Below, piece after piece: positions 3,130-63,915 of a stretch of 64,000 nucleotides of DNA. The stretch is from Ruminococcus champanellensis 18P13 = JCM 17042 (GTDB lineage: Bacteria; Bacillota; Clostridia; Oscillospirales; Ruminococcaceae), in contig NC_021039.1 in NCBI RefSeq assembly GCF_000210095.1, positions 892,650 to 956,649 on the forward strand, read 5' to 3'. The position numbers and the translations under genes are program-made. The notes under the pieces were generated by a model. The model saw only the letters and a program-made list of their open reading frames with translations. It was not told the DNA's origin and did not search any database. Numbering within the stretch: the stretch's first letter is position 1; every line of letters starts with the position of its first letter.

Positions 3130-4554
3130 ATGAAACTTCGCAGAAAGACTGCGGTTGTTATGGCTGCGGGAGCCGTTATGATGGCAAATGCTGCACCAGT
3201 TTTGACGGCGGCAGAGGTGAAAGAAATGCAAACGGGAGCACTTTCAGAGGAAACGGTTCAATTTTATTCATACTGGAAGGAAAAATATCTGGCGCAGGAT
3301 CCCTATGTGACGGGAGATCCCCAGTATTATGTATTCTACGGGGAGAAAACCTACGCAGAAGCCGGCGCAGAGGTGGCGGTGACCGTTTCCGAAGCCCACG
3401 GCTATGGCATGCTCATTGCTGCGTCCATGGCGGAGCATGACGGCCAGGCGAAGGATATTTTCGACGGCATGTACCGTTATTACAAGGCGCATCCCAGCGG
3501 CATCGGCCCGAATCTGATGGCGTGGCAGCAGACGGACAACGGATCCGCCATTCAAAACAGCGCCGGTGCGGATTCCGCAACGGACGGGGATCTGGATATT
3601 GCCTATGCGCTGCTGATGGCGGATACGGTGTGGGGCAGTGACGGCGCCATCAACTACAAGCAGGCGGCGCTGGCTGTGATGAACGACATTATGACCTATG
3701 AGGTAAATCAGACCGACTGGGTGTTACAGCTGGGAGACTGGGCGCACAACACCAGGGAAGGGGATACCTACTACGCAGCCACCCGTTCCTCGGATTTTAT
3801 CGTTCAGTACATGCCGGTGTTTGCGGAGGCTTCCGGGGATACGCGCTGGACAACCCTGTATGAGAGCACCTACCGGATCATCAACCAGATGGTGGACACC
3901 TACGGTACGGGCATTTTGCCGGATTTCATTGTCAAGGACAGCAACGGAAAATTTGTGCCGGCTTCAGCAAATTTGCTGGAAAGCGAGCATGACGGCAATT
4001 TTTATTACAATGCATGCCGGACGCCCTGGCGGATCAGCATGGATTATCTGGTGAATGGAAATGCGGATGCGCTGAAGTTCGCCAATGCCCTCAATGGATT
4101 TATTACCCGGAAAACCGGCGGCGATCCGGCGCAGATCATGGCAGGCTATACTCCGGCAGGGGAGGCGGTTTCCGACTGGAATGACCTTTGCTTTGATGCT
4201 CCCTTCCTGGTGGCAGCAGCCTGCGGCGGGTATGATACTTGGCATGACAGCCTCCGCAGTATGATCCTGGATTACGGGGAGGATGTGTACTTTGGCGACA
4301 CCATCACCATGCTTTGTCTGATCGTAGACGACAACGCCTGGATCGTACCCGCTGGTGCTGACCAACCCGTTCGGGGGGATGTGAACCAGGATGGTGCATG
4401 CACAGTAGCAGATGTAATCGCATTGCAGAAATGGCTGCTGCACACGCCGGATGCTTCCCTCGCTGACTGGAAGGCAGGGGATCTGTGCCCGGATGGCAAG
4501 CTGAATGCAATGGATCTTTGCCTGTTAAAACGGGAACTTTTGAATCTTGCTTGA
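3130..4554 (+). CDS. Glycoside hydrolase family 8 endoglucanase-like enzyme with C-terminal dockerin
   Basis: A 474-residue exported enzyme. A signal peptide occupies about residues 1-28. The catalytic region (about 45-400) has the GH8 signatures VSEAHGYGML, with the likely acid Glu88, and ATDGDLDIAYALL, with the conserved acidic residues of the active site. GH8 enzymes are inverting beta-1,4-glucanases, xylanases, chitosanases or licheninases; endoglucanase is most likely in this context but is not certain. Residues 415-474 are a type I dockerin with two calcium loops, GDVNQDGACTVAD and a diverged GDLCPDGKLNAMD. The protein should therefore bind a cohesin and join the cellulosome. It is a single-gene transcript with a consensus promoter and a strong terminator. 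Confidence 0.93.
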   Translation: MKLRRKTAVVMAAGAVMMANAAPVLTAAEVKEMQTGALSEETVQFYSYWKEKYLAQDPYVTGDPQYYVFYGEKTYAEAGAEVAVTVSEAHGYGMLIAASMAEHDGQAKDIFDGMYRYYKAHPSGIGPNLMAWQQTDNGSAIQNSAGADSATDGDLDIAYALLMADTVWGSDGAINYKQAALAVMNDIMTYEVNQTDWVLQLGDWAHNTREGDTYYAATRSSDFIVQYMPVFAEASGDTRWTTLYESTYRIINQMVDTYGTGILPDFIVKDSNGKFVPASANLLESEHDGNFYYNACRTPWRISMDYLVNGNADALKFANALNGFITRKTGGDPAQIMAGYTPAGEAVSDWNDLCFDAPFLVAAACGGYDTWHDSLRSMILDYGEDVYFGDTITMLCLIVDDNAWIVPAGADQPVRGDVNQDGACTVADVIALQKWLLHTPDASLADWKAGDLCPDGKLNAMDLCLLKRELLNLA

Positions 4555-48032: not shown

Positions 48033-50678
48033 ATGAAGGTCAAACTCAGCAAGCAGGTTCTCGTTGCGGCATGCAGTCTTTGCACTGCGGCAGCTATGGC
48101 GGCCACCACTGTAATGCCCGTTTTTGCGGACGCAGGGGAGAAACCGCCGGAGGTCACAGAAGAGGAACGGGTGTTCCCGGATCCGGACAGTTTCAGTTAT
48201 GATGACGTAGAGATCAATTTTGCGAAGGCTTTGCAGTATTCCCTGTATTTTTACGATGCGAACAAGTGTGGCCCCGGCATCACCGGAGGCAATCTGGAAT
48301 GGCGGGGAGACTGTCATGTGGAGGATGCTACCATTCCTCTCAAGCCCATGGGAGAGGATTTCAAGGGCACGAACCTGTCCCAGGAATTCATCGACGAGCA
48401 TAAGGATCTGCTGGATCCGGATGGGGACGGACTCATCGACTGCTCCGGCGGTATGCACGATGCGGGAGATCATGTAAAATTCTGTCTCCCTGGCAGTTAT
48501 GCCGCATCCACCGTAGGCTGGGGCTACTATGAATTCCGGGACGCTTATGTGAAAACCGGCACGCAGGAGCATGTGGAGGACATCCTGCACTGGTTCAACG
48601 ATTTTTACATGAAGAGCACATATCTGGACGAAAACGGTGAAGTGGTGGCATACTGCTACCAGGTGGGCGAGGGCAATATCGACCACAATTACTGGATCGC
48701 ACCGGAGCTGCAAAACGAAAATCTGCTGGACTTTGCCCGTCCCGCATACTTTGCCACAACAGAAACCCCTGCCTCCGACATGTGTGCCGGCACGGCGGCT
48801 TCCCTGGCCATCAACTACCTGAACTTCAAGGACACGGAGCCGGAGTATGCAGCCGAGAGCCTGCAAAAGGCAATCGCCCTGTATGACTTTGCAGTCAAGA
48901 CCCATACCGAGACGGAGGGCTTGAAGGTCACCAGTCTGGGCTATGACGGGGGCTTCTACACCTCCAGCTATGACTACGACGAACTGGCGTGGGCAGCTGT
49001 GTGGCTGTATGAATGCACCGGCGAGTGGGACTATATTGACGACATCATTCATGTGGATGAAACCGTAACCGGGGACATGGGGGCACATCCCTACACCGGT
49101 TATCTGAAGCGGATCATCGCCGACACCGGAAACTGCTGGCAGAACATCTGGGTACACTGCTGGGATACGGTATGGGGCGGTGTATTTGCAAAGCTGGCGC
49201 CCATCACCAACATCTCCCGTGACTGGTACATTTTCCGGTGGAATCTGGAGTACTGGTCCGGCATGAACGAGCAGGATGCTGCGGCTGCACCTACCAAAGC
49301 AGAGAAAAACAACGTTACCATGGCGGCAAGCGTGCCTGCGGTGACTTCTCATAAGGACTTCGGTCTGGACGATCAGATCTGGAACACCAAGATCACGGCG
49401 GAGGAAATTGCGGATCTGCCCACCAAGGATGGCGCATTCCTGGCAAAGACGCCGGCTGGCTTCTCCATGCTGAACGAATACGGCTCCGCCCGGTATGACG
49501 CTGCCGCACAGCTTTGCGCATGCGTATACGCCAAGGAAACCGGGGATAACACCTTTGTAGACTGGGCAGAGGGACAGATGGAGTACATCATGGGCAAAAA
49601 CCCCATGAACCGCCCCTACATTGTTGGCTATTCTCCTACGGCAGCAAGCCATCCCCATCACCGGGCTGCACACGGTTCCAAGACTCTGAACATGGACGAT
49701 CCCCAGACCCAGACCCATGTACTCTGGGGCGCACTGGTAGGCGGGCCGGATGCCAGCGACTGGCACCGTGATATTACCAAGGACTACATTTATAATGAGG
49801 TTGCTGTGGACTATAACGCAGCATTCGTTGGGGCATGTGCCGGTCTGTATAACTTCTGCGGCACGGAGGATATGAAGCCCCAGTCCAATTTCCCGCCCTC
49901 CGAGGCTTCCATGAAGGGGGACATTGTGGAATACAAGCTGAAGGCTTCCATCGGTCAGGAAGACAACATGGCAACGCAGGTACTGGTGGAGATCGATAAC
50001 TCCAGCTTCCTGCCGCCCCATTATCTGAAGGAAACCAAGGTGCGCTACTACTTCAGCATTGCAGAGCTTCTGAAGAACGGACAGACTCTGGACGATCTGA
50101 CTGTCCGGATGGACTATGACGCAATGAAGTCCAATACGGACGGCAAGCATGAAGTCACCTACAATGTGGTGCAGTACAACGACAAGGGGGACTGCTACAT
50201 TGAGCTGACCTGGACGGGATATGAATTCTACGGAACCATGCAGTTCCAGTTCGCCCTGATGGCACAGGTGCAGAATGAGGAGTATACCTTCATCTGGGAT
50301 CCCACCAATGACTACAGCCGTTCCGGTCTGTCTACCTGTGATGAACTGGGTGTGACGCTGGCGGAGGCGCTGACCGAATACGATCTGATCACCATGTACG
50401 TGGATGGAGAGCATGTATGGGGCAAGGCGCCTGCGGATGCGCAGGAGGATGAAACCCTGTACGGAGATGTGGACTGCAATGGCACTGTGGAAATCGCAGA
50501 TGTTGTGCTGCTGTCCCGGTATGTGGCACAGGACAAGGATGCAAAGGCGGTCACTGCACAGGGACTGCTGAATGCGGACTGTGTGAAGGACGGCACTGTG
50601 GATATGGAGGACATTACAGCCATTGCACGGTATCTGGCACACTTGATTGAAGCATCCCAGCTTGGAAAGGCATCTTAA
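48033..50678 (+). CDS. Glycoside hydrolase family 9 endoglucanase with CBM3-like domain and dockerin
   Basis: An 881-residue exported cellulase. A signal peptide (about residues 1-32) is followed by a GH9 catalytic domain (about 55-615) with GGMHDAGDHVKF (catalytic Asp), the PHHRAAHGS motif and YNEVAVDYNAAFVG, with the likely acid Glu. A CBM3c-like domain follows (about 630-800), including LKETKVRYYFSIAELL and YGTMQFQFALMAQ, as in processive endoglucanases of theme B. The C terminus is a type I dockerin (YGDVDCNGTVEIADVVLL and ADCVKDGTVDMEDITAIARY). It has a CAGGAGGG site and a strong terminator. It should act with the GH8 enzyme on the cellulosome. Confidence 0.94.
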   Translation: MKVKLSKQVLVAACSLCTAAAMAATTVMPVFADAGEKPPEVTEEERVFPDPDSFSYDDVEINFAKALQYSLYFYDANKCGPGITGGNLEWRGDCHVEDATIPLKPMGEDFKGTNLSQEFIDEHKDLLDPDGDGLIDCSGGMHDAGDHVKFCLPGSYAASTVGWGYYEFRDAYVKTGTQEHVEDILHWFNDFYMKSTYLDENGEVVAYCYQVGEGNIDHNYWIAPELQNENLLDFARPAYFATTETPASDMCAGTAASLAINYLNFKDTEPEYAAESLQKAIALYDFAVKTHTETEGLKVTSLGYDGGFYTSSYDYDELAWAAVWLYECTGEWDYIDDIIHVDETVTGDMGAHPYTGYLKRIIADTGNCWQNIWVHCWDTVWGGVFAKLAPITNISRDWYIFRWNLEYWSGMNEQDAAAAPTKAEKNNVTMAASVPAVTSHKDFGLDDQIWNTKITAEEIADLPTKDGAFLAKTPAGFSMLNEYGSARYDAAAQLCACVYAKETGDNTFVDWAEGQMEYIMGKNPMNRPYIVGYSPTAASHPHHRAAHGSKTLNMDDPQTQTHVLWGALVGGPDASDWHRDITKDYIYNEVAVDYNAAFVGACAGLYNFCGTEDMKPQSNFPPSEASMKGDIVEYKLKASIGQEDNMATQVLVEIDNSSFLPPHYLKETKVRYYFSIAELLKNGQTLDDLTVRMDYDAMKSNTDGKHEVTYNVVQYNDKGDCYIELTWTGYEFYGTMQFQFALMAQVQNEEYTFIWDPTNDYSRSGLSTCDELGVTLAEALTEYDLITMYVDGEHVWGKAPADAQEDETLYGDVDCNGTVEIADVVLLSRYVAQDKDAKAVTAQGLLNADCVKDGTVDMEDITAIARYLAHLIEASQLGKAS

Positions 50679-50878: not shown

Positions 50879-50930
50879 GTTGCTAAAAATGCATGTAGTT
50901 TTATAGTATTTTAAGGAAATGAGGCAGAAT

Positions 50931-53900
50931 ATGAGCATGTTCTTCAAACGAAGCATGTCTGCACTGCTGGCAGCCACCATGCTGACCATGGCGGCTCCAT
51001 TCGACAGCCTGGCGGTCTTTGCGGAGGATCTGGAATCCACCGTAACCATCGGCTCGGCGGATGTCAACGGAGACAAGAAGGTTGACGAGAAGGATTGTGC
51101 GCTGATCCTGGAAGCGATCGGCAGCACGACCGGAACCGCTTCGGTCACAGCAGACAATGCGGCATTGAACGTGTACGGCGATGCAGTCATCGACGTGCGG
51201 GATCTGATGGCAGTGAAGGATGCCATCAATGGGATAAAGGCCTATGTGCCGGAGGAGGCGAATGTTTCAGAGCAGGTTGATCTGAACATCAGCTCCACAA
51301 CCGGATACGCCGGGGAAAAGGCAACCTTTGCGATCAGCCTGGCGGACTGGGAAATGGACGTTGCCGCCTACGAAATGCGGCTGTCTCTGGACAATGCACT
51401 GACCGTGGAGGAGGTGTCCTGCAACGGAGATGTGCAGTATAAGCTGGACGGCAGCACACTGAAGCTGTACGGCATGTACAGCGGCTCTCCCGCATACCGG
51501 GGTACCCTGGCGACCATTACGGTTACACTTCCGCCGGAGGCTTACGGGGATTACGGCGTTTCCGTAGTGGGTGCAGATTTCTTCAACAGCGCTTACCAGG
51601 AGTATGCATACCAGGCTACCACCGGCGGCGTGACCGTGGATATGGAAACCAAGCCGGTTTATCTGCGGGCTTCGGAGCTGAACTCCAAGTCCCTGCAGTT
51701 GAGCTGGAGTATGCCCTTTGACGGGGACAAGGTGACCGGCTATATCATCAGCCGGGACGGAGAGGAGATCGGCCGTACAGAGGATCTGTTCTTTGATGAT
51801 AAGGATCTGGAAACCGGCAAGAGCTATCTGTATAGCGTGCAGGCATACGGCACGGACTATCTGTCCGCCCCTTCCCGCACCATTACAGTGACTCCCACTG
51901 CACCGGTGATCCAGTCCATCAGTCTGCCGGACGGAAAAAATGCGGTGGGCGGAGCATCCACCCTTGTGACCTGTCTGATGGAGCATGGGGTACGGGCAAA
52001 GACCTACACCCTGTACTGCACGGATGAGGAGGGCAACCGTACCGTCATCAGCGAAGGAGAGGACCAGAGCTTTTCTGAGCTACAGGTCAGATGGCAGCTG
52101 TCCGAGCTGAAAACCGGCACGTATACGCTGGGACTGACTCTGACGGATGTGGACGGTGCTGAAGTTTCTGCGGAGACCACTGCACAGGTGGATAACACAC
52201 CGCCGGGGGAGGTGTTCGGCTTTACCGTCATTCCCGGGGATGAGCAGAACGAGCTGACCTGGGGCATTGCAGCGGAGCTGAAGGTTGTGGGCTATCGGAT
52301 CTATCGCCGGACTGCCACCAGCAACTACAGCGAGCTTGCTTATGTGGAAGGACGTTCCACGCTGAAGTATGTGGACAAGGACGTGGAAACCGGTCTGGAA
52401 TACTTCTATATCATTGCAGCCGTTGACAAGTACGGCATGGAGGGAACCTTCTCTGCGGAGGTCAGCGGATCTGCGCATGTGGATCAGACCATGCCGGAGA
52501 TCACCCTGTTCCTGCCGGGCAGCGGTACCGTGCTTTACTCGGTGGTGACGCTGAATGTCAAGGCACAGGACAACATCGGCGTAGCGAAGATTACCTGCTT
52601 CCTGTCCGACGATGAGGGCGAGACCTGGAAGGAACTGTTTACCGCCAACGGGGACAGCGTAAGCTATCGGTTTGACACAAGCGCCTATGATGAGGCTTCC
52701 GTACAGATCAAGGCAGTTGCCTATGACTACGCCGGCAATGAAAGCAGCGGCGCCAACATCAATATTTACGCCATTGACAACAAGGGACCGGAGCAGGTGA
52801 CCGGCGTAAATCTGAAGGCATCCGGCGCAACCACAGCTACCGTTGCCTGGGAGGATGTGCCCGACCAGGATCTGCACCACTTTGTGGTCAGATACGGTGT
52901 GACGGGAAGCAGCGGTTACAAAACGGAGAATATCTACCGCACCCTGGGCATTAACCTGAGCGGACTCAAGCCCGGAGAGAGCTATACCGTAGTGGTTGCC
53001 GCAGTGGATACATACGGCAACCAGGGCGAATTCTCCGAGCCTCTGATCTTCACCACCCCGGAGGACACCACAGCGCCGGTGATCGCTTCGATCTATCCGA
53101 CCCCCAGCTATTTTGCAAAGTCCATTCCGCTGCAGGTAAACGCAAAGGATGACTTCTCTGTAGCGTCCGTAACGGTGGAGGCTTCCACGGATCAGAAGAC
53201 CTGGAAGCAGATTGCTGTCATTGAAAATCCCGAACCCACGAAAAATTACTTCAATGCATCCTACACCCTGGATGTGACCGGCTATCCGGAGGGGACGCTC
53301 TATGTGCGTGCCTACGCAGAGGATCTGGCAGGGAACAAGGGTACGGTAGAGAATGCTGCTGTATATGAGTATATGGTGGATCGGACTGCCCCTGCCGCTA
53401 TGGATACTCTGCGGGCAGTGGAGAACGATTCCTGCATCGAGCTGCTGTGGGAAGAAGCAGATACAGATGTGAATTACTACCGGCTGTACCGGGCAGACGG
53501 GGAGGACGGAGAATTCCGGCTGCTCTACGACAGAATCCGGTATCTGAATCATTTTGACCGGCAGGTGACCACGGATGTGCAGTACCGGTATCAGGTGACT
53601 GCGGTGGACATTGCCGGCAACGAAAGTGAACCCTCCAATGTGGTAACTGCAACCCTGCAGGAGGATACCACCGCGCCGGAGATCCAGAGCATCAGCCCGG
53701 AAACCGGCAGTGAACTGAGCCTGAATGACCATTCCATCGGCATTCTGGCATCGGACAACCTGCTGCTGTCCAGTCTGACAGTGGAGTATAAGACAGATCC
53801 GGACGCAGAAACCTATCAGACCCTCAAGAGCTTCACAGATCTGACGGACTACTATCTGTTTGCAACGGTGGAGATCCCCAACCTGCTGATGGTGGATGGT

Positions 53901-56900
53901 ACCACCATTTATATCCGTGCCCAGGCCACGGACCGGAGCGGCAATGTGAGCGAGTATGCATATTCCGCATACAAGGTCAACAATGCAGTGACTGCGGTGA
54001 CCAAAGTGACTGTGGAGCAGACGGAAACTGCCAATACCGTCAAGTGGACGGCGAATGAATCCGAGCAGACCAGCGGCTATCGGATCTTCCGGAAGATCGG
54101 CTCCGGCAGCTATGATCTGATCGCAACCCGTGCAGTGGAAAAGAACGGAGACGGCAGCTATGCATTTGCCGATGAGGATCTGCGCACTGCCGGAAGCTAT
54201 ACATATAAAATTGTTTCCGTCAACTACAACGGCAACACCTCCTCCCGTGTCAGCGGTTCTGTATCCGTACATACCAAGCCGGTTCCGGCACTGAACTGTG
54301 ACACTGCTATGGAGCAGGGCGTTGCATATGTGTTTGACGCCAGCGGCAGTAAGGATCAGGGACTGCTCAACGCTCTGGTGATCGAATACGGGGACGGCGC
54401 AGTGGAAAAGGCGACTTCTCCGGAAACTGCAAAGTTTGAGCATACTTACCAGGAAACCGGCGTGTACCAGGTGAAACTGACCTGTACCAATGAGTTCGGA
54501 CTGGTCAGCGTTCTGACCCGTTCCGTTCAGGTAGTGGAGCGTCAGCTGCTGGGGACTGTCACCGTTCAGGTCAAGACCACTGACGGCAAGGCAGCTTCCA
54601 ACATTGGCGTATACATGGACTTCGGCACCGATGCCCAGACCAAGTATGTGGCAGACAGCCGGGGCATCGTGACCTTCCAGGCACCTGCCGGCGCCCACGA
54701 TATCGGCGTATACGGGGACGGCTATCTGCCCCAGGTGAAGAACTGCGTCGTGACTGCCGGAGAGGAGAATGCCTTCTCCTTTGCAGTGGTGGAGCAGTAC
54801 ATCGTTTCTGCGGAGTTTGAGATCAAGCGTATGACCCTGGATGAGATCATTGCCGCAGGCATCGATATTACCCAGCCGGAAAACCAGCAGATCGTACAGA
54901 TCAATGTGGATCTGACCTATGAGATCACCACGGACAGCGGCAAGAAGACCCAGTCCATGGCGCTCTACGTAAACAACCGGACCAAAACCATCATTTCCTC
55001 CCATACCACCAAGGGAGACACCAGTGTCCATTACGAACCGGTGTTTGTACGGTATAATGAGAAGACCGGAGAGGTCAGCACCGTTGCAATGCTGAGTGTG
55101 CCGGTGAATGTAAGCTATCTGAAGGAATTCTTCGATGTGCAGCTGCATATCATCAACAACGCAGATGAGCAGTTCAATATTTCCGACAGCACCGTGAGCC
55201 TGAATGTGCCCAAGGGGCTGACGCTGATGGAGTCTGCCGCAAGCTGCGACAGCCGCATTGTGAACATCCCCAGCATTCCCGGCAAGAGCCAGAAGACGCT
55301 GTCCTGGATTCTCCGGGGCGATCACAAGGGTGAGTATTACCTGTCCGCAGATTTCAGCGGCACCCTGGATCAGTTCAACGAGAAGATCGAGACTACATTT
55401 GTCAGCGAGGAAGCGATCAAGGTTTATGGCGAAACCGCTGTAGGGATCACCATCAATGTGCCCAGAGCTTCCAGAAACAACAAGACCTATTTCGATGTGC
55501 AGATGAAGAACAACACGGACAGCTCCGTATACAACGTGGGTGCTTCCGTGGGTACCATTGTTGCACAGATCATGGAGCATGAAAAGTACACCCTGGAGGG
55601 CAAGCCTTTACAGGCTCGGATCATTTCTCCGCAGGGCGAAATGGAACTGATCGATCTGACGGAATCCATTGAGGAGCTGCGCCCGGGTTACACCCTCAGC
55701 GTTGTGTACTCAATCCGTAATATCGTACCGGGTACATTGTTTGCTCGTTCTACGGTGCGCCTGGTGGATGCCACCATCCGTTCTCTTTCCGACAGCAATT
55801 TCCCTGTATCCCTGCGCTGGGTGGACAGTATCAAGCTGTTGGAAGACGGCGACTATGACGGCATTACCTCCAATGTCCGTGTGGACAAGGATGTGGACTT
55901 GTCCAAGGAATATGTGATCGCAGTGGTCAATGCAGCAGGAAACTGGGTACCCAGTGCAACGATTGAAGTAACCTATCCGGACAAGACCACCAAGACCTTT
56001 TCTGCGGATTCCTTGGGACGGGTCAGATTCGATCGGCCGGCAGGCGGCTCTGAAACAGTGGGCATCCGGGTTTCCGCCGATACCTATAAGACCCATGAAG
56101 ACAGTGATTATTATCTGAAGTACCGGGGCACGGATACTGTGATGCTCAACGGAGAATCCAGCAGTGATTATGCCCTGACCAAAGCAATGTATAAAAAGGC
56201 TGGTTCCTGGAACCTGCTGACCGGCTATAAGCGCCTGAATATGGGCAACAAGGTTCTGGATTTTGCCATTGAGTGCGCTGTGGCTGCAAAGGACGCCGAA
56301 AGCTGCCAGCTGCTCCAGAACGGTAAGATCATTCAGGAAGTGAAGCCCAGCGGCAGCAAGTTTAGCTTTACCGGCTTGAATGTCAAGGATTTCGAGGAAA
56401 TGGGAGATGGAGAGACGCTGACTGTCCGGGTATACCAGCCCAACGGCGCATACTACGACAGCAAGATCAATCTGACCATTCTGCCGGATCCCACCGTGGT
56501 AGAGCCCAGCTTTGAGTTCTCCGGCGACGCATTTACCTTTGGCATCAGCGATTCCATCCCCTTCTTCGGCGGTTCTTCCGTGAAGATCCCGTATCCTCCC
56601 ATCCTGGAGCATCTGAATATCTGCATGGATGAAAACAAGATCCGGATCGGTATCAATGTGGATCTTCCGATTGTGTCAACGGATAAGGAGGACAAGGCGG
56701 CATTGGATAAATTCGTAGAGGATTTTGAAAAGCTGAAGACCAATTTAAAGCGTTCTCCTTCGGATCTGCTGCACGATAAGTCCATCAACACCGGAAAGAT
56801 CAGCCTGGGCAAGGCTGAGGTCAAGGTGCTTGGCGGCGGCTATGTGGAGGGTGACTTCTCCGAGAGCGGGAAGGCGATCCTGAACGGCTACCTCTATATC

Positions 56901-59453
56901 GGCATTGAAGCCGGCGTAAACTTTGATTATCAGACTGTGGTATGGGTAATTCCGGTAACCGCAGAGCTTGGCCTGACCGGTAAAATCGTAGCAGGCACCA
57001 CCATTAAATTCACCTACGACTTCGATCATGCATGGCAGCTGGATGCCAAGGTCACCGCACAGGGCACCTTCGGGGTGGAAGTATTCGGCGGTGTAGGCTT
57101 CTCCAGCATTGCAGCCATTGGCGTGTACGGCGGCGCAGAGCTGGATCTGGATATGCAGCTGTACGATACCTCCGATGATTCCGGTCCCCGGATCAATACC
57201 CTGGATCTCACCGGCGAGTTGGGCTTCCGGGCATATGTGGGACCCTTTGAGTATAAGAAAGCCTGGGCGAGCCAGACATGGCATCTGTACACCAATCCGG
57301 AGCTTGCAAACTCCGAACAGGATGCAGCACCCAGCTATCTGGCACCCCTGTATGACACCGCAGCCTACAGCGTAAGCGAGGAGACCCAGGAGGTTTCCAA
57401 GTGGCTGGGAGGCAGCAAGCTGGAGCCGGACAAGGTGCAGACTCTGCTGACCAATGCCAACAATGGGGCGGATCCGCAGCTTGCAACCGATGGCACCAAC
57501 TATGTGCTGGTATATCTGGAAAAGGATCCGGCACGGAGCATATACGACGCATCCAGACTGATGTACGCTGTATACACCGCTGAAACCGGTACCTGGAGTG
57601 ATCCGAAGCCGGTGGATGAAAACGAGACCGGCGATTATCAGCCCGCTCTGTTCGGCAATGCAGACGGCATTTACCTGGCTTACCAGGAAGCAAACCAGGC
57701 ATTCGGTGCGGACAGCGAGCTGACGGTGGATGCCTATGCAGCATCCCTGGGGGTAACCTGTGCAGTCTTTGACGCTGAGCAGCAGAGCTTCGGGGCTGTA
57801 ACCACCATGACTGTTCCGGAAAACAGCTGCAATTCCATTCCCACTGTCTTTGAAGACGGCGGACTGGTATATGCAGCCTGGGTATCCAACGCAAAGGGCG
57901 ATTATTTCGGCACAGAGGGTGCAAACACCATTTTCTACAGCATCTGCACAGAGGGCACCTGGAGTGAACCGGCTGCACTGGCTTCTGACCTGACGGCAGT
58001 GACCGGATTGCAGATCGGCAAGCTGGAAAGCGGCGTGTCCGTTGCATGCATCACCGACGGGGATAATGTTTTGATCACTGCGGATGACCGTACCTTGACT
58101 CTGATTGCAGCAGACGGCACACAGCAGCAGGTAGTGACCGGCTGTGTATCCGCACCTGTCTTTGCACAGCCTGCATGGTCTGAATCTCCGCTGCTGATCT
58201 GGTACGATACCTATAACCTCAGCTGCACGGCGGACGGCAAGGAAATTGCACAGCTCTTTGCACAGGGCATCAGCGGTCTGACCGACGCATACACCCTGCT
58301 GCCGGACGGAGTCGTATATACCAGCGCTGGCAAGGACGGCAGCGATCTGTTCCTGATCCGTTACGATGCGGCACAGCAGGCATGGGGCGCACCGGTTCAG
58401 CTGACTGATACAGAGGGCTATATCAACGGCGCAGGGGCTGCAGTTTGCGGCGATCAGCTGCTGATGACCATGCTCCGGCAGAACGTCACCATTACAGAGG
58501 ATGATGTGCAGGTAGAAAGCACATTGTGCGCACTGCTCCGCAGCACCTTCAGCGACCTTTCCGTTGACAAGGTGGACTACGACTTTACGCAGATCCAGCC
58601 CGGCAGTCAGCTGCCTCTGGATGTGACTGTCACCAATCACGGGAACAGCACAGTCAACAGCGTGACCATCGGGGTATACACCAAGGACGGCACGCTGATC
58701 AGCACACAGGACGTGGAAACCACACTCCTGTCCGGTACGGCACAGGTACTCGCCGCTTCCTTCCAGGTTCCGGAGGATATGAGCACCACGGAGTATCAGG
58801 TGATTGTATCCGTTCCGGATACAACGGATGTAAACGAAGCAGACAATGCAGCAGCGTTCAGCATCGGCTATACGGAGCTTTCCTTGACAACCGATCAGTT
58901 GATTACCGCACAGGGCACAAAGCTGCAGATTTGCGTGACCAATGAAAGTCAGATTCCCACCGGCGGTATTCTGGATCTGTATCACTATGATGAATCCCAG
59001 GATCCGGTTCTTTCCCTGATCGTAGAGGAGCTGCAGCCTGGTCAGAGTACCGTATACACAGTGGATGTGGACGATTCCATCATCTCTGAGGACAACCGGT
59101 ATGTGATGGTCAAGCTGACTGCGGATGAAGCGGAGTATGATGAATCCGATAACGAGGAGCTGGTTGCTGTTTATCTGAGCGGAAGCCTTCCCACCGTAAC
59201 CATCGGGGATGTAAACGGGGATGGGGAAATTACCGTCAATGACGCCGTTATGCTCCTGGATGAGTGTGCAGCCCGTGCAGTGGGAACCACAACCCTGGAC
59301 GAAGCACAGCGGAGTCGTGGAGACGTAAACGAAGACGGTTCCATCACGCTGACGGATGCCATTCTGATTCTCAATTACTGTGCGGAAAAGCTGGTAGATC
59401 CGGAGCTTACGTTTGCGGATTTTCTCAAGAATGCAGGAGGAAACAATGAATAA
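50931..59453 (+). CDS. Giant secreted cellulosome protein with dockerins at both ends and a cohesin-like domain
   Basis: A 2,840-residue exported protein. After the signal peptide (about residues 1-31) comes a dockerin: ADVNGDKKVDEKD and a weaker loop, NVYGDAVIDVRD. A beta-sandwich of about 120 residues follows that resembles a cohesin (GYAGEKATFAISL, YEMRLSLDNALTVEEVS, GTLATITVTLP, and a GGVTV end). Next are many FN3 and Ig-like modules (residues 240-1130), a PKD-like module (SKDQGLLNALVIEYGDG), unassigned beta-rich regions, a Gly/aromatic-rich stretch (about 1985-2090) and a propeller-like region (about 2160-2540). Two CARDB-like domains and a classical dockerin (GDVNGDGEITVND and GDVNEDGSITLTD) end it. 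I see no catalytic domain. The ATG at 50931 is preferred; 50919 and 50937 are alternatives. It is coupled to the LRR gene. Confidence 0.9.
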   Translation: MSMFFKRSMSALLAATMLTMAAPFDSLAVFAEDLESTVTIGSADVNGDKKVDEKDCALILEAIGSTTGTASVTADNAALNVYGDAVIDVRDLMAVKDAINGIKAYVPEEANVSEQVDLNISSTTGYAGEKATFAISLADWEMDVAAYEMRLSLDNALTVEEVSCNGDVQYKLDGSTLKLYGMYSGSPAYRGTLATITVTLPPEAYGDYGVSVVGADFFNSAYQEYAYQATTGGVTVDMETKPVYLRASELNSKSLQLSWSMPFDGDKVTGYIISRDGEEIGRTEDLFFDDKDLETGKSYLYSVQAYGTDYLSAPSRTITVTPTAPVIQSISLPDGKNAVGGASTLVTCLMEHGVRAKTYTLYCTDEEGNRTVISEGEDQSFSELQVRWQLSELKTGTYTLGLTLTDVDGAEVSAETTAQVDNTPPGEVFGFTVIPGDEQNELTWGIAAELKVVGYRIYRRTATSNYSELAYVEGRSTLKYVDKDVETGLEYFYIIAAVDKYGMEGTFSAEVSGSAHVDQTMPEITLFLPGSGTVLYSVVTLNVKAQDNIGVAKITCFLSDDEGETWKELFTANGDSVSYRFDTSAYDEASVQIKAVAYDYAGNESSGANINIYAIDNKGPEQVTGVNLKASGATTATVAWEDVPDQDLHHFVVRYGVTGSSGYKTENIYRTLGINLSGLKPGESYTVVVAAVDTYGNQGEFSEPLIFTTPEDTTAPVIASIYPTPSYFAKSIPLQVNAKDDFSVASVTVEASTDQKTWKQIAVIENPEPTKNYFNASYTLDVTGYPEGTLYVRAYAEDLAGNKGTVENAAVYEYMVDRTAPAAMDTLRAVENDSCIELLWEEADTDVNYYRLYRADGEDGEFRLLYDRIRYLNHFDRQVTTDVQYRYQVTAVDIAGNESEPSNVVTATLQEDTTAPEIQSISPETGSELSLNDHSIGILASDNLLLSSLTVEYKTDPDAETYQTLKSFTDLTDYYLFATVEIPNLLMVDGTTIYIRAQATDRSGNVSEYAYSAYKVNNAVTAVTKVTVEQTETANTVKWTANESEQTSGYRIFRKIGSGSYDLIATRAVEKNGDGSYAFADEDLRTAGSYTYKIVSVNYNGNTSSRVSGSVSVHTKPVPALNCDTAMEQGVAYVFDASGSKDQGLLNALVIEYGDGAVEKATSPETAKFEHTYQETGVYQVKLTCTNEFGLVSVLTRSVQVVERQLLGTVTVQVKTTDGKAASNIGVYMDFGTDAQTKYVADSRGIVTFQAPAGAHDIGVYGDGYLPQVKNCVVTAGEENAFSFAVVEQYIVSAEFEIKRMTLDEIIAAGIDITQPENQQIVQINVDLTYEITTDSGKKTQSMALYVNNRTKTIISSHTTKGDTSVHYEPVFVRYNEKTGEVSTVAMLSVPVNVSYLKEFFDVQLHIINNADEQFNISDSTVSLNVPKGLTLMESAASCDSRIVNIPSIPGKSQKTLSWILRGDHKGEYYLSADFSGTLDQFNEKIETTFVSEEAIKVYGETAVGITINVPRASRNNKTYFDVQMKNNTDSSVYNVGASVGTIVAQIMEHEKYTLEGKPLQARIISPQGEMELIDLTESIEELRPGYTLSVVYSIRNIVPGTLFARSTVRLVDATIRSLSDSNFPVSLRWVDSIKLLEDGDYDGITSNVRVDKDVDLSKEYVIAVVNAAGNWVPSATIEVTYPDKTTKTFSADSLGRVRFDRPAGGSETVGIRVSADTYKTHEDSDYYLKYRGTDTVMLNGESSSDYALTKAMYKKAGSWNLLTGYKRLNMGNKVLDFAIECAVAAKDAESCQLLQNGKIIQEVKPSGSKFSFTGLNVKDFEEMGDGETLTVRVYQPNGAYYDSKINLTILPDPTVVEPSFEFSGDAFTFGISDSIPFFGGSSVKIPYPPILEHLNICMDENKIRIGINVDLPIVSTDKEDKAALDKFVEDFEKLKTNLKRSPSDLLHDKSINTGKISLGKAEVKVLGGGYVEGDFSESGKAILNGYLYIGIEAGVNFDYQTVVWVIPVTAELGLTGKIVAGTTIKFTYDFDHAWQLDAKVTAQGTFGVEVFGGVGFSSIAAIGVYGGAELDLDMQLYDTSDDSGPRINTLDLTGELGFRAYVGPFEYKKAWASQTWHLYTNPELANSEQDAAPSYLAPLYDTAAYSVSEETQEVSKWLGGSKLEPDKVQTLLTNANNGADPQLATDGTNYVLVYLEKDPARSIYDASRLMYAVYTAETGTWSDPKPVDENETGDYQPALFGNADGIYLAYQEANQAFGADSELTVDAYAASLGVTCAVFDAEQQSFGAVTTMTVPENSCNSIPTVFEDGGLVYAAWVSNAKGDYFGTEGANTIFYSICTEGTWSEPAALASDLTAVTGLQIGKLESGVSVACITDGDNVLITADDRTLTLIAADGTQQQVVTGCVSAPVFAQPAWSESPLLIWYDTYNLSCTADGKEIAQLFAQGISGLTDAYTLLPDGVVYTSAGKDGSDLFLIRYDAAQQAWGAPVQLTDTEGYINGAGAAVCGDQLLMTMLRQNVTITEDDVQVESTLCALLRSTFSDLSVDKVDYDFTQIQPGSQLPLDVTVTNHGNSTVNSVTIGVYTKDGTLISTQDVETTLLSGTAQVLAASFQVPEDMSTTEYQVIVSVPDTTDVNEADNAAAFSIGYTELSLTTDQLITAQGTKLQICVTNESQIPTGGILDLYHYDESQDPVLSLIVEELQPGQSTVYTVDVDDSIISEDNRYVMVKLTADEAEYDESDNEELVAVYLSGSLPTVTIGDVNGDGEITVNDAVMLLDECAARAVGTTTLDEAQRSRGDVNEDGSITLTDAILILNYCAEKLVDPELTFADFLKNAGGNNE
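51054..51236 (+). other. N-terminal dockerin domain of the giant protein
   Basis: Two EF-hand-like calcium loops, ADVNGDKKVDEKDC and NVYGDAVIDVRDLM, each followed by a helix (ALILEAIG and AVKDAINGI), directly after the signal peptide. Loop one has Asp, Asn, Asp and Asp at positions 1, 3, 5 and 12; loop two has Asn at position 1. Confidence 0.8.
51267..51638 (+). other. Cohesin-like beta-sandwich domain of the giant protein
   Basis: About 124 residues with the order of strands seen in cohesins: a start with AGEKATFAISL, a YEMRLSLD strand, LTVEEVSC, ATITVTLP, and a closing GGVTVD. This is by eye; a related carbohydrate-binding or Ig fold is possible. Confidence 0.55.
59200..59399 (+). other. 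C-terminal dockerin domain of the giant protein
   Basis: Two near-perfect calcium loops, GDVNGDGEITVNDAV and GDVNEDGSITLTDAI, each with a helix of the LLDECA or LILNYCA type. This is a typical type I dockerin of Ruminococcus. Confidence 0.92.
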
Positions 59454-62400
59454 GTATATCAGACGCTCTATGGCAATGGCTGTTGCGCTGAGTATTGTGG
59501 GCGCACAGATGAACCCTGAGTGTACCAACCTTGTAAAAACTGCGGTGATGCATATCACCGCAGAAACCCTCACCGCTGAGCAGTATACCTATACTGTGAA
59601 TGAGGACGATACAGTTACCATTACCGGCTATACCGGCACAGATGCAGTGCTGATTTTGCCGGAAACCATTGATGGTAAGCCCATCAGTGCCATCGGTGCC
59701 AGAGCTTTTTACAGACATACGGAGCTGACCGGTGTGGCAATGCCGGATACGGTTACATCCATCGGGGAGTATGCATTTTATGCATGCAGTCAGCTGGTTG
59801 ATATAGATCTGGGCAAAGGACTGGTTACAATCGGCAGTTATGCGTTTGATAGCTGCAATAAGCTGGTGAATCTGAAGCTGCCGGATACCTTGACGATTAT
59901 TCCGGACTATGCATTTAATGGGTGTTCATCCCTGCTGAGTGTAACGGTACCTAAGTCTGTGACTACCATCGGTCGCAACGCCTTTAACAAGTGCTCCGGT
60001 CTGACCCGTGTCAGCCTGCCGGCAGGTGTATCCGTAGGAGACTTTGCATTTTATGAATGCGGCGGTCTGGAGCAGCTGGAGCTGCCGGAGGGTATTCAAC
60101 TGGGCAGATACGCTTTCTCCCAGTGTGAAAATCTGCGGCAGGTGCTGTTTAACGGGGAACAAGGCACCATCGGCACCTATGCGTTTTATTCCAATGGCTC
60201 TCTGGAATCCGTGGTATTCCCAACGGAACTGACAGAGATTTCCGAAGGCGCGTTTTCAAGCTGCAATAAGCTCAAGACCGCTGTGCTGCCCAAATCCGTC
60301 GCTGTGATCGGAGATAAAGCATTTGAACGGTGTAATGCACTGGAAAAGGTTGAATTTTCCGCAAATCTGAAAAGCATCGGCAGGGACGCATATAGCTATT
60401 GCACTGCTTTGACCCAGGTAGAGGTTCCGGCGGGTGCTGCCCTTGCAGGCGGCTGCTTCTATGAATGTGATGGACTGACAACAGCAACCATTGGTGACGG
60501 TATCACAGAAATGGGGAATGGGAATTTCTATGGATGTGAAAATCTGACCTCTGTGAAGCTGCCGGATACCTTGACCGAATTGCCTCAGACAACATTTGCA
60601 TACTGTACGTCTTTGACGGATGTACAGATGCCGGAGGCATTGACCATCATCGGAACTTCTGCATTTTACCATTGTACCGGCTTGACAAGTCTGACAATTC
60701 CGGGCAGTGTGACCACAATCCGGGCGTCCGCCTTTGAGGAATGCTACAAGCTGGAGTCTGTGGAACTGCCGGATTCCATTACCGAAATGGGCAGTTCCGT
60801 ATTTGATAACTGCCTTGCTCTGAAGTCTGTTACCCTGCCCTCCAAGCTGACTGTAATCAGCGATAACATGTTCTACTATTGTATCAAGCTGGAAAGTGTC
60901 GTGATTCCGGATTCCGTCAAGAGCATCGGCATCGGTGCCTTTGCACACTGTGTCGCTCTGACATCCATACAGATGCCGGCAAGCTTAGAGACCATCGGCC
61001 AGGAGGCATTTTACAACTGCCAGGGGCTTACAGAGGTTGCACTTCCGGATTCCGTAAAGACCATAGGCATTAGAAGCTTTAGCCGCTGTGTCAATCTGAC
61101 GCAGCTGAATCTGCCGGATGATATACAGGATCTTGGCAACGATGCCTTTTCAGAAACCAAGTTGGAGGTTCTGACAATCCCCAAATCCATGACCGAGATT
61201 CCCAATTACATGTTCTCCAACATGAGCAGCCTGAAGGAGATCCAGATCCCGGACACGGTTACAAGCATCGGGTATGGTGCGTTCAGCAACTGTACCAGTC
61301 TGAAAGAGGTTGTGATCCCGGATTCGGTGGTGTCCATGGATAAACAGCTGTTTTTGGGCTGTACCAGTCTGACCAATGTGCAGCTGCCGGCCAAAACAGA
61401 AACGATTCCTTACAGAATGTTTGAAGGCTGCAGCTCCTTGAAGAGCATCACCCTGCCGGACACTGTAACTAAGATTGATGAAAACGCCTTTTATGGCTGC
61501 TCCTCCTTGACCAGTTTAGAGCTGCCGGAGGGGCTGACCACTTTGGGATACAGAGCGTTTGGCGCAACCGGCATCCAGAGCATTACCCTGCCGGAGGGAA
61601 TAACCAGTCTTCCCAATATGCTGTTCTCGGATTGCAAGGCGCTGACGCAGGTTGATCTGCCATCGAATATTACTGCAATCAGCATTGGTGCATTTTATAA
61701 CTGCTCTGCTTTGAAAACCATTCAGCTGCCGGATAGTATTACTTCCATTGGCAATGATGCATTTGAGGGCTGTTCCGCTTTGACAGATATCAAGCTGTCG
61801 GAGAACATTACGGAGATTGGATCCTATGCGTTCATGGATACGGGATTGGAACAGCTGGATCTGGGTGCCACTAAGATTACAAGCCTTTCACCGTATCTTC
61901 TGCAGTCCTGCAGTAATCTGAAACAGGTCACCTTGCCGGATTCTTTGACGTACATTGGAAACCAGGCGTTCTACAACTGTTTCTCACTGACAGAGCTGCA
62001 GCTGCCGGATGGGGTGAAAACGATTGAGTATGGCGCATTCGGCAACTGCAAAGCGTTGACCAATCTGGAACTGCCGGATTCCGTTACATCAATTGGAAAT
62101 TTTATGTTCCAGAGCTGTACCGGACTGGAAACTGTGAAGCTGCCGGCAGGCTTGACTGACATTTCCGCTTACATGTTCTATAATTGTTCAAGTCTTTCGG
62201 AGATCACCATTCCGGAAACTGTGACCAGTATCAGTTCCTATGCCTTCTTCGGCTGTTCCTCTTTGCATGAGATCACCATTCCCCGCACTGTCACAACAAT
62301 GGGAGAGCATGTTCTGGGTTACAGTGCAAAGGAAGGGGAAACCATGGATCTGACCGTTCTGTGTGCCCCCAATTCCACTGCACACATTTATGCACAGAAC

Positions 62401-63915
62401 AATGAGATCAACTTTAAGCTGGTGACTGACCGGGATTACTCCAAGTGCCCGGTTGGATACTACATTCAGGATGACGGGGCTCACATTACCGACTGCGATC
62501 CGGAAGCCATCAACCTTGAGATCCCTGCCACTGTGGAAGATGTACCGGTGGTCGCCATTGAGAAATATGCGTTCCGGGATTGTGCGCTGGAGTCCGTTGT
62601 GATTCCGGATACGGTGACAACGATTGCGGATGAGGCGTTCTACGGCTGTGGGCGGCTCAAGGAGATCCAGCTGCCTGCAAGCGTCACCAATCTTGGCAGT
62701 CGTGTGTTCGCACAGTGCACCAGTCTGACCAGTGCGGACTTGTCTCTGCTGACGATCACACGGATTCCCTCCTACACATTCAACAGCTGTACTGCCCTGA
62801 CGACAGTGTCCTTCCCGAAAACGCTGGAGTATGTAGGCATGAGTGCGTTCCAGCACTGTACTGCTCTGGAGGAGTTGACCTTCCCGGACAACAGCATCAC
62901 CTTTGATGACAACTGCTTCTACAACTGCTCCTCTTTGAGCGACGTGACCTTCCCCACAAAGTATTGCTACTTTGATTATTACAGCTTTGGCAACTGCACC
63001 AAGCTGCTGGACATTACCATCAGCGGTGATTCCGCTCTGTATTACAACAGCATCGGATTTTATGACGATGGTACATCCGGTACCGTGAAGCAGGTTCCGG
63101 GCGTTACCTTCCATGTGCCCTTCAACAGCAATGTGCAGAATTATGTTGCCCCCAAGGAAGCCTTTATCCTGATGCCTACGGACGGTGTGAAATACACGGT
63201 GCTGGAGGATCAGACTGTGCGGATCGATCAGATTTCTGTAAAAAGTACGGGGATCACGATTCCAGCCCGCATTGAAGGAATGCCTGTATCTGCGATCGGC
63301 ACACGGGCGCTGAAGGGCTTGTCCAGCGTGACAAGCATCACCCTGCCCAATACCTTGACCAGCATCGAGGATTATGCGTTCATGAACTGCACCAGTCTTT
63401 CCGGCTGCAACATTCCCGCAACCGTTACCCGGATCGGCAGCAATGCCTTTTACAACACCAAGCTGTCTTCCAACTGGAAGTCCAGGGAGTTTGTAATACT
63501 GGGTGATGGGGTGCTGTATCAGTACAACGGCAAGGCTCAGGAGATCACGGTGCCGGATACTGTCAAGGTGATCGGCGAAGGGGTATTCGCTTATCAGACA
63601 AACCTGCAGAAGGTCATCCTGCACGAAGGCTTGACTGAGATCGGAGACGGTGCGTTCCTGTATTGTCAGAGTCTTGCAAGCGTGGAGCTGCCAGATACGG
63701 TGACATGCGTGGGCAATGCTGCATTCAGCGGCTGCACCGGTCTGAAGCGGTTCACCTGCGGTACGGATCTTGCACTGATCGATGAATATGCGTTCTTTGA
63801 CTGCACCATTGAGCTGTTCCGGGGCGAGGATGGCTCCTATGCGCAAGGCTATGCCAAGGACAACGGCTATACCTTTGAAATCCTTACAAAGGAAGAGCCG
63901 GAGACAGATGCATAA
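59446..63915 (+). CDS. BspA-type leucine-rich-repeat surface protein
   Basis: A 1,489-residue exported protein made almost wholly of LRR_5 (BspA-like) repeats of about 23 residues, with the pattern (L)xxVxLPDSVTxIGxxAFxxCxxL repeated dozens of times. A signal peptide covers about residues 1-22, and an N-terminal module (YTVNEDDTVTITGYTG) leads into the repeats. A break with DRDYSKCPVGYYIQDDGAHIT near residue 1000 separates two blocks. There is no dockerin, sortase motif or CBM. Such proteins bind host or microbial surfaces in other bacteria. The gene overlaps the giant gene by 8 bases and starts after its own GCAGGAGG site, so the two are translationally coupled. Confidence 0.93.
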   Translation: MNKYIRRSMAMAVALSIVGAQMNPECTNLVKTAVMHITAETLTAEQYTYTVNEDDTVTITGYTGTDAVLILPETIDGKPISAIGARAFYRHTELTGVAMPDTVTSIGEYAFYACSQLVDIDLGKGLVTIGSYAFDSCNKLVNLKLPDTLTIIPDYAFNGCSSLLSVTVPKSVTTIGRNAFNKCSGLTRVSLPAGVSVGDFAFYECGGLEQLELPEGIQLGRYAFSQCENLRQVLFNGEQGTIGTYAFYSNGSLESVVFPTELTEISEGAFSSCNKLKTAVLPKSVAVIGDKAFERCNALEKVEFSANLKSIGRDAYSYCTALTQVEVPAGAALAGGCFYECDGLTTATIGDGITEMGNGNFYGCENLTSVKLPDTLTELPQTTFAYCTSLTDVQMPEALTIIGTSAFYHCTGLTSLTIPGSVTTIRASAFEECYKLESVELPDSITEMGSSVFDNCLALKSVTLPSKLTVISDNMFYYCIKLESVVIPDSVKSIGIGAFAHCVALTSIQMPASLETIGQEAFYNCQGLTEVALPDSVKTIGIRSFSRCVNLTQLNLPDDIQDLGNDAFSETKLEVLTIPKSMTEIPNYMFSNMSSLKEIQIPDTVTSIGYGAFSNCTSLKEVVIPDSVVSMDKQLFLGCTSLTNVQLPAKTETIPYRMFEGCSSLKSITLPDTVTKIDENAFYGCSSLTSLELPEGLTTLGYRAFGATGIQSITLPEGITSLPNMLFSDCKALTQVDLPSNITAISIGAFYNCSALKTIQLPDSITSIGNDAFEGCSALTDIKLSENITEIGSYAFMDTGLEQLDLGATKITSLSPYLLQSCSNLKQVTLPDSLTYIGNQAFYNCFSLTELQLPDGVKTIEYGAFGNCKALTNLELPDSVTSIGNFMFQSCTGLETVKLPAGLTDISAYMFYNCSSLSEITIPETVTSISSYAFFGCSSLHEITIPRTVTTMGEHVLGYSAKEGETMDLTVLCAPNSTAHIYAQNNEINFKLVTDRDYSKCPVGYYIQDDGAHITDCDPEAINLEIPATVEDVPVVAIEKYAFRDCALESVVIPDTVTTIADEAFYGCGRLKEIQLPASVTNLGSRVFAQCTSLTSADLSLLTITRIPSYTFNSCTALTTVSFPKTLEYVGMSAFQHCTALEELTFPDNSITFDDNCFYNCSSLSDVTFPTKYCYFDYYSFGNCTKLLDITISGDSALYYNSIGFYDDGTSGTVKQVPGVTFHVPFNSNVQNYVAPKEAFILMPTDGVKYTVLEDQTVRIDQISVKSTGITIPARIEGMPVSAIGTRALKGLSSVTSITLPNTLTSIEDYAFMNCTSLSGCNIPATVTRIGSNAFYNTKLSSNWKSREFVILGDGVLYQYNGKAQEITVPDTVKVIGEGVFAYQTNLQKVILHEGLTEIGDGAFLYCQSLASVELPDTVTCVGNAAFSGCTGLKRFTCGTDLALIDEYAFFDCTIELFRGEDGSYAQGYAKDNGYTFEILTKEEPETDA

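Follow-up and report, generated by a model that had tools for sequence, protein, structure and literature searches.

Ruminococcus champanellensis is a cellulose degrader of the human gut. Dockerins have mostly been treated as single plugs on cargo. For this species, the ScaB dockerin is reported to bind the wall-attached CohE (PMC7456326), and one group of dockerins is said to anchor via ScaE (PMC8865330). In R. flavefaciens, ScaE is reported as the partner of the group-4 dockerins, carried by ScaB, CttA, ScaF, ScaH, the leucine-rich-repeat (LRR)-bearing ScaI, and a peptidase (PMC5301203). Proteins with two separated dockerins each are on record for R. flavefaciens 007c and 17 and for Acetivibrio (PMC4081043). 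Here we describe P0001, a gene for a 2,840-residue protein of R. champanellensis 18P13 = JCM 17042, located in a 64,000-nucleotide stretch of contig NC_021039.1 (positions 892,650 to 956,649, forward strand; assembly GCF_000210095.1), the whole of which we call the window. P0001 has a dockerin at each end and a sandwich domain, predicted to be a cohesin, next to the first, and this layout is conserved in relatives. We propose, with moderate confidence, that P0001 serves as a giant adaptor of the ruminococcal cellulosome, held at the cell surface.

Two dockerins and a cohesin in one chain

The P0001 frame is open over window positions 50919-59453 (+) and encodes 2,840 residues from the ATG at 50931. 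Directly after a signal peptide recognized by eye lies a dockerin that scored 29.9 bits (E 6.5e-7) against Pfam Dockerin_1 (PF00404; curated cut-off, 22.9 bits) in the protein scan, and 29.5 bits (E 2.3e-6) in a scan of the complete 2,573,208-base genome (one contig). A second dockerin at the very end of the protein scored 53.8 bits summed over two stretches and 39.4 bits (E 1.8e-9) in the genome scan, and both of its calcium loops are canonical. The original prediction had placed dockerins at these two positions from the sequence alone, and both placements were confirmed by the Pfam profile. Its premise of one dockerin per protein, normally C-terminal, was too strong: R. flavefaciens FD-1 is reported to have 19 N-terminal, 32 internal, and 156 C-terminal dockerins (PMC2930009), and we accordingly rejected the idea that the N-terminal position is odd in itself. 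The genome scan gave 68 Dockerin_1 rows in, by our reading, 67 frames, P0001 being the only frame with two. We clustered 68 dockerins, the two of P0001 with those from 66 other places in the genome, at four thresholds (0.60, 0.65, 0.70, and 0.75), and the two P0001 dockerins did not cluster with each other.

Relatives were collected from searches of 297 and 396 family genomes (overlapping sets), which yielded five other genomes with the N-terminal dockerin-cohesin head, and from a named scan, which yielded six further loci. Three loci were left out before counting: L094, on the same contig as G345/L092, and L098 and L101, which cover inner parts only and lack the head. The full layout is present in eight of the 11 relatives, all of them complete; contig ends truncate two more, and the last (G241), though complete, has no match to the N-terminal dockerin and no C-terminal one. 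The N-terminal dockerin was matched in 11 of 12 proteins, P0001 included (5/6 and 6/6 in the two scans); its first calcium loop is canonical in 11 of the 12 aligned sequences, and by eye the helix after its second loop is well kept. The C-terminal dockerin is present in 9 of the 10 complete proteins: in P0001, G117, L096, L097, and L099 it exceeds the cut-off on its own, and in G379 and G345 it is seen as a second stretch for which the score is a summed one only. The nine complete two-dockerin proteins share 25 to 81% pairwise identity, with most pairs at 25 to 37%. Because complete relatives across this range carry both dockerins, we rejected an assembly error or a gene fusion as the source of the double dockerin, and its conservation shows that the layout did not arise by chance in a single gene. 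Record titles of the named loci read Ruminococcus sp., R. flavefaciens, or Oscillospiraceae metagenome-assembled genomes, and several come from ruminants.

Residues 112 to 240 form a sandwich that sequence profiles and predicted structure identify, in both fold and ancestry, as a divergent cohesin. AlphaFold modeled residues 36 to 243, using six sequences, with a predicted local distance difference test score (pLDDT) of 90.5 and a predicted template modeling score (pTM) of 0.87. A VIA fold search placed cohesin-bearing entries at ranks 1 to 37 (Z 16.1 to 11.6), the best being 4ums (Z 16.1; root-mean-square deviation of 1.9 Å over 128 residues), and included 5m2o at Z 13.5 (2.5 Å over 123); the first clearly unrelated row was rank 40, at Z 11.0. 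When six orthologous sandwiches were combined in a profile and compared with solved structures, R. flavefaciens ScaB cohesin 3 (5m2o) came first at E 6.5e-6, and all top nine structure rows were labeled scaffoldin or scaffolding protein; from E 0.029, cyclodextrin glycosyltransferases were mixed with more cohesins. The corresponding profile of 12 sandwiches reached a similar order of magnitude against the PDB (1.4e-5). When trimmed to the domain, 8 of 12 orthologous sandwiches exceeded the cut-off of Pfam Cohesin (PF00963) with 26.5 to 36.8 bits, and the members of alignment A10 matched Cohesin alone at E ≤ 0.01. The prediction that this sandwich might be a true cohesin, and not another Ig-type family, thus held, as did the assignment of the N-terminal loops to a dockerin. 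Many ruminococcal cohesins, in several strains, are reported in a 2024 survey as missed by profile and found by predicted fold (PMC11557425).

In ScaB cohesin 3 of R. flavefaciens, the hydrophobic platform for the dockerin is described as an Ala and a Leu, and changing the Ala to Gln abolishes binding (PMC5429695). In our alignment, the residue at the Ala position is small in all 12 sandwiches (10 Ala, 1 Ser, and 1 Gly). Of the weaker matches of the head search, beyond the six strong ones that include P0001, those retrieved were mostly cohesin-like by eye.

Layout of P0001 and neighboring genes

The features of P0001 and of its downstream boundary are given below in window coordinates, with the basis for each in parentheses.

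50931..59453, + strand: P0001, secreted protein with a dockerin at each end (open reading frame and translation, stop codon counted in; full-length relatives)
50931..51026, + strand: signal peptide, residues 1-32, approximate (by eye on the sequence)
51057..51230, + strand: N-terminal dockerin, residues 43-100 (PF00404; alignment of 12 relatives)
51264..51650, + strand: divergent cohesin, residues 112-240 (AlphaFold, VIA fold search, PDB profile, Pfam Cohesin in orthologues)
51651..54272, + strand: FN3 and bacterial Ig-like spacers, residues ~241-1114 (Pfam; fn3 over cut-off, Big_7 below)
54273..54524, + strand: PKD domain, residues 1115-1198 (PF18911, 40.5 bits)
54528..55610, + strand: conserved core, residues 1200-1560 (alignment A5; Pfam in relatives; one weak PDB match, E 0.018)
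55608..57380, + strand: weakly conserved, beta-rich-looking region, residues ~1560-2150 (alignment A7; best PDB match E 0.014 over 39 positions)
57378..58565, + strand: beta-propeller, residues 2150-2545 (AlphaFold and propeller rows in the fold search)
58551..58844, + strand: CARDB domain, residues 2541-2638 (PF07705, 24.2 bits)
59205..59378, + strand: C-terminal dockerin, residues 2759-2816, two similar repeats (PF00404; class membership)
59435..59440, + strand: Shine-Dalgarno-like AGGAGG within the end of P0001, ahead of the downstream start (sequence)
59446..63915, + strand: overlapping BspA-type LRR_5 giant, 1,489 residues from its ATG (Pfam; sequence)

P0001 thus combines a cohesin and two dockerins in one putatively secreted chain in which no catalytic family exceeded its cut-off in Pfam and NCBIfam scans; the best NCBIfam row was an exoglucanase model at 27.8 bits against a cut-off of 1950 (residues 220 to 347). 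No SLH family was matched by Pfam. Of the original prediction of a protein with no catalytic domain and only spacers, the first part agrees with these scans, and the second had overlooked the beta-propeller, which AlphaFold modeled with a pLDDT of 86.0 and a pTM of 0.88. In the fold search of this propeller, lectins, sialidases, lyases, peptidases, and other propellers scored alike, and we assign it no activity. The conserved core bears a weak resemblance to MG4 and CarboxypepD_reg at its start, and residues 1560 to 2150 have no recognized fold. Profile searches against the PDB gave nothing convincing for the propeller (best E 0.37), for residues 1560 to 2150 (0.014), or for the conserved core (0.018). 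Homologs of parts of the stalk (residues ~237-1549) occur in giant proteins from other genera (L046, L047, L048, L050, L051, and L052), and some of these giants carry YD/Rhs-like repeats, by eye, or adjoin genes that do.

P0001 and its relatives are paired with a second giant gene. In each of the 10 complete cases, the nearest ATG of a giant frame lies in a span from 7 nucleotides ahead of the end of the stop codon to 21 nucleotides behind it. The downstream protein is of the BspA-type LRR_5 family by Pfam in all five cases scanned, and for the remaining five we relied on inspection by eye. In R. champanellensis, no dockerin or cohesin was found in this LRR giant (59446..63915). We infer that P0001 and the LRR giant are translationally coupled. 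Beside the G379 relative, a divergent gene (L091:1224-5765(-)) encodes a 1,514-residue protein that by eye is LRR-like and ends in a dockerin-like segment.

Immediately upstream of P0001 is a gene for a GH9-CBM3-dockerin cellulase (48033-50678), and by eye the G117 relative has a matching neighbor. A 963-residue frame with an N-terminal dockerin-like segment, also by eye, lies immediately upstream of another relative (L100:2650-5538(+)). The window holds a further dockerin at 4375-4542, ending a 474-residue frame (3130-4554). Very long antisense frames lie opposite P0001 (52080-55580(-), 1,166 residues; 56745-59573(-), 942 residues) and are probably a by-product of codon usage. The G+C content of the window is 54.15%; the species is reported at 53.07% (PMC8865330).

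Proposed function and its alternatives

The C-terminal dockerin offers a candidate for attachment to the cell. At thresholds 0.70 and 0.75 it belongs to a five-member class, together with the dockerins of a GDSL/SGNH-cohesin-dockerin protein, a papain-type peptidase, an LRR protein, and a 326-residue protein. The two-cohesin protein L054 has a dockerin, seen by eye, that scores like those of the class. A motif of the class occurs twice in 7 of 71 compared dockerins, including an X-dockerin that we call ScaB-like and whose published counterpart binds CohE (PMC7456326); it occurs once in the X-dockerin of L056 and is absent from the other 63. The parent proteins of the class are strikingly like the R. 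flavefaciens group-4 set, and by this analogy the C-terminal dockerin of P0001 would plug into a cell-wall-anchored cohesin of the ScaE type. In the 326-residue protein (L168:965-1942(-)), the dockerin of this class follows a domain that is cohesin-like by eye.

With the C terminus held in this way, the stalk of about 2,500 residues (FN3, Ig, and PKD domains, beta-propeller, and CARDB) would carry the N-terminal head outward. This small head, of about 210 residues, is predicted as one unit in which a dockerin would be packed against a cohesin. Its cohesin could capture another dockerin protein and its dockerin could join a second scaffoldin, by which P0001 would link two assemblies and one extra cargo, the role of double-ended adaptor that the original prediction had suggested and that our results support in part. 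We further infer that P0001 acts together with the LRR giant from the overlapping or adjacent gene. If this proposal is right, unlike plugs at both ends together with a socket of its own would permit cross-links between scaffoldins or between cell and matrix. The gene pair, present in 10 of 10 cases, connects the LRR proteins of ruminococci, abundant yet unexplained, with components of the cellulosome and makes their role testable.

A number of observations weigh against the adaptor proposal, beginning with the C-terminal dockerin. It stands alone at threshold 0.60 and is paired with only one other at 0.65, and the motif of its class was picked after the sequences had been inspected. Its scores with the two X-dockerins are a modest 67 and 76, compared with 183 between those two, so that a specificity shared with them is a motif argument only. 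Its two repeats are identical at 12 of 22 positions, and those of an unrelated dockerin of the genome (d6891) at 11 of 22, so this symmetry is not distinctive. In our alignment, the Gly-Arg pair of the R. flavefaciens ScaH and peptidase dockerins is absent, and Val-Asn and Leu-Thr stand in its place. Most dockerins of R. flavefaciens LRR proteins are reported to have bound no tested cohesin (PMC5301203). Among the relatives, the C-terminal dockerins of G294 (21.5 bits) and L100 (17.4 bits) fall below the cut-off, and G241 has kept the cohesin with no C-terminal dockerin and no match to the N-terminal one.

The head adds to these points. The N-terminal dockerin is a singleton at all four clustering thresholds; we therefore rejected its membership in any known dockerin class of the genome, and no partner can be named for it because it clusters with no other dockerin there. 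By our numbering, its second calcium loop has a Tyr at position 3 in 10 of 12 sequences, and in P0001 an Asn at position 1 as well. The P0001 sandwich gave no Pfam Cohesin match even at E ≤ 10 and, trimmed, those of P0001, G241, and L100 gave none either, while that of G117 stayed below the cut-off at 18.0 bits. Full-length scans of three relatives gave no Cohesin at E ≤ 0.1, so detection requires the trimmed domain; with longer head segments, three of six (L096, L099, and L100) gave no Cohesin at E ≤ 1. The platform Leu of ScaB cohesin 3 is not conserved, being Gly in P0001 and Leu, Met, Gly, Asn, or Asp in relatives.

The altered second loop and the lost platform Leu would also fit the main rival to the adaptor, which we consider possible but doubtful. 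Here the N-terminal dockerin and the cohesin would form a closed structural dyad, either a self-complex or an X-module-like support, that binds nothing else; P0001 would then be a surface protein attached at one end only, through its C-terminal dockerin, and displaying its stalk and propeller. The linker between the two domains is short, and the pTM of 0.87 over both suggests that they are packed in a fixed arrangement. A single dockerin-like repeat (by eye) before a cohesin-like domain recurs, as if it were a module, in two proteins that continue with a GH25 lysozyme (L171:385-1884(-) and L082:1315-2568(+)). The cohesin-like domain of L082 scored 20.3 bits, below the cut-off, and that of L171 had no Pfam match. 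The canonical first loop and the retained helix of the N-terminal dockerin, however, suit binding as well, and the dockerin and cohesin are separable, since G241 retains the cohesin with a decayed dockerin. We also know of no published permanent lock between a dockerin and a cohesin in cis, although no search was aimed at one, and we count this against the dyad.

A more specific form of the adaptor proposal, which we regard as speculative and unlikely, treats the head as a connector locked in cis and releasable by calcium or force, whose dockerin and cohesin halves can bind each other and which cross-links scaffoldins. P0001 and its relatives would then be giant, conserved two-plug linkers of cellulosomal ruminococci, clamped to the wall at the other end and deployed with the co-translated LRR giant.

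It is less probable still that P0001 and the LRR giant are an adhesin pair that binds mucin, fiber, or other cells through the propeller and the repeats, with the dockerins and cohesin a mere tether or vestigial. The constancy of the gene pair would agree with this, as would its retention in G241, where the C-terminal dockerin is missing. The best fold matches of the propeller include sugar-binding lectins, but its matches to enzymes are equally good. In four more distant relatives, residues 1137 to 1278 are 43 to 52% identical to P0001, compared with 22 to 38% for residues 1 to 142; yet 9 of the 10 complete proteins retain both dockerins, although most pairs are only 25 to 37% identical. That residues 112 to 240 are some other Ig-type or carbohydrate-binding sandwich and no cohesin is very improbable: the failed Pfam matches of P0001, G241, and L100, the glycosyltransferases from E 0.029, and fold matches to an adhesin domain (Z 11.0) and a pilin (Z 10.9) would suit it, but the 37 top-ranked fold matches are all cohesins, eight orthologues exceed the Cohesin cut-off, the A10 members matched no other Pfam family at E ≤ 0.01, and fold-detected cohesins of this kind are reported from several strains of the genus (PMC11557425).

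Comparison with described systems

The original prediction knew of no earlier example of this layout, a claim that is only partly right: chains bearing two non-tandem dockerins had already been noted in R. flavefaciens and Acetivibrio (PMC4081043). What stands is the combination: the dockerin-cohesin head, the conserved unlike ends, and the LRR gene pair were not found in the literature searched, a search that did not include comparison with the R. champanellensis ScaA-ScaL sequences. The R. flavefaciens proteins with two separated dockerins, EWM52383 of strain 007c and orf03158 of strain 17, may belong to the same family as P0001; they were compared by description only, from a source that in its available part gives no cohesin, size, or dockerin position (PMC4081043).

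Acetivibrio cellulolyticus ScaK resembles P0001 in having two dockerins and cohesins in one chain, and differs in having two cohesins and an SLH module (PMC3413522). The tandem double dockerins of Clostridium thermocellum are also two per protein, the first preferring the cell-bound scaffoldin; unlike those of P0001, they are adjacent and act as one unit, accompanied by a protease domain or no partner, with no cohesin mentioned in the available part of the source (PMC12484212). Within R. champanellensis, the published ScaK (cohesin and GH25) and ScaH (SGNH, cohesin, and dockerin) fit, by our reading, L171 and L055 of the P0001 genome (PMC9210761). ScaK is described with an unidentified 103-residue N-terminal stretch before the cohesin (PMC9210761), where by eye L171 has its one dockerin-like repeat. 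Both differ from P0001 in bearing enzymes, in their size (constructs of 52 to 55 kDa), and, as far as described there, in lacking a second dockerin (PMC9210761).

Further counterparts are the adaptor scaffoldins ScaF and ScaH (cohesin-dockerin) and ScaI (LRR-cohesin-dockerin) of R. flavefaciens. Like P0001, each has one cohesin and a C-terminal dockerin, which in their case is of group 4 and binds the cell-wall ScaE, and ScaI shares with P0001 a link to leucine-rich repeats (PMC5301203). These proteins have one dockerin each, whereas P0001 adds an N-terminal dockerin, a propeller-bearing stalk of 2,500 residues, and an LRR partner encoded as a separate adjacent gene. The parts of P0001 are known from such systems, and it is their conserved arrangement and the pairing with an LRR gene that seem to be little described.

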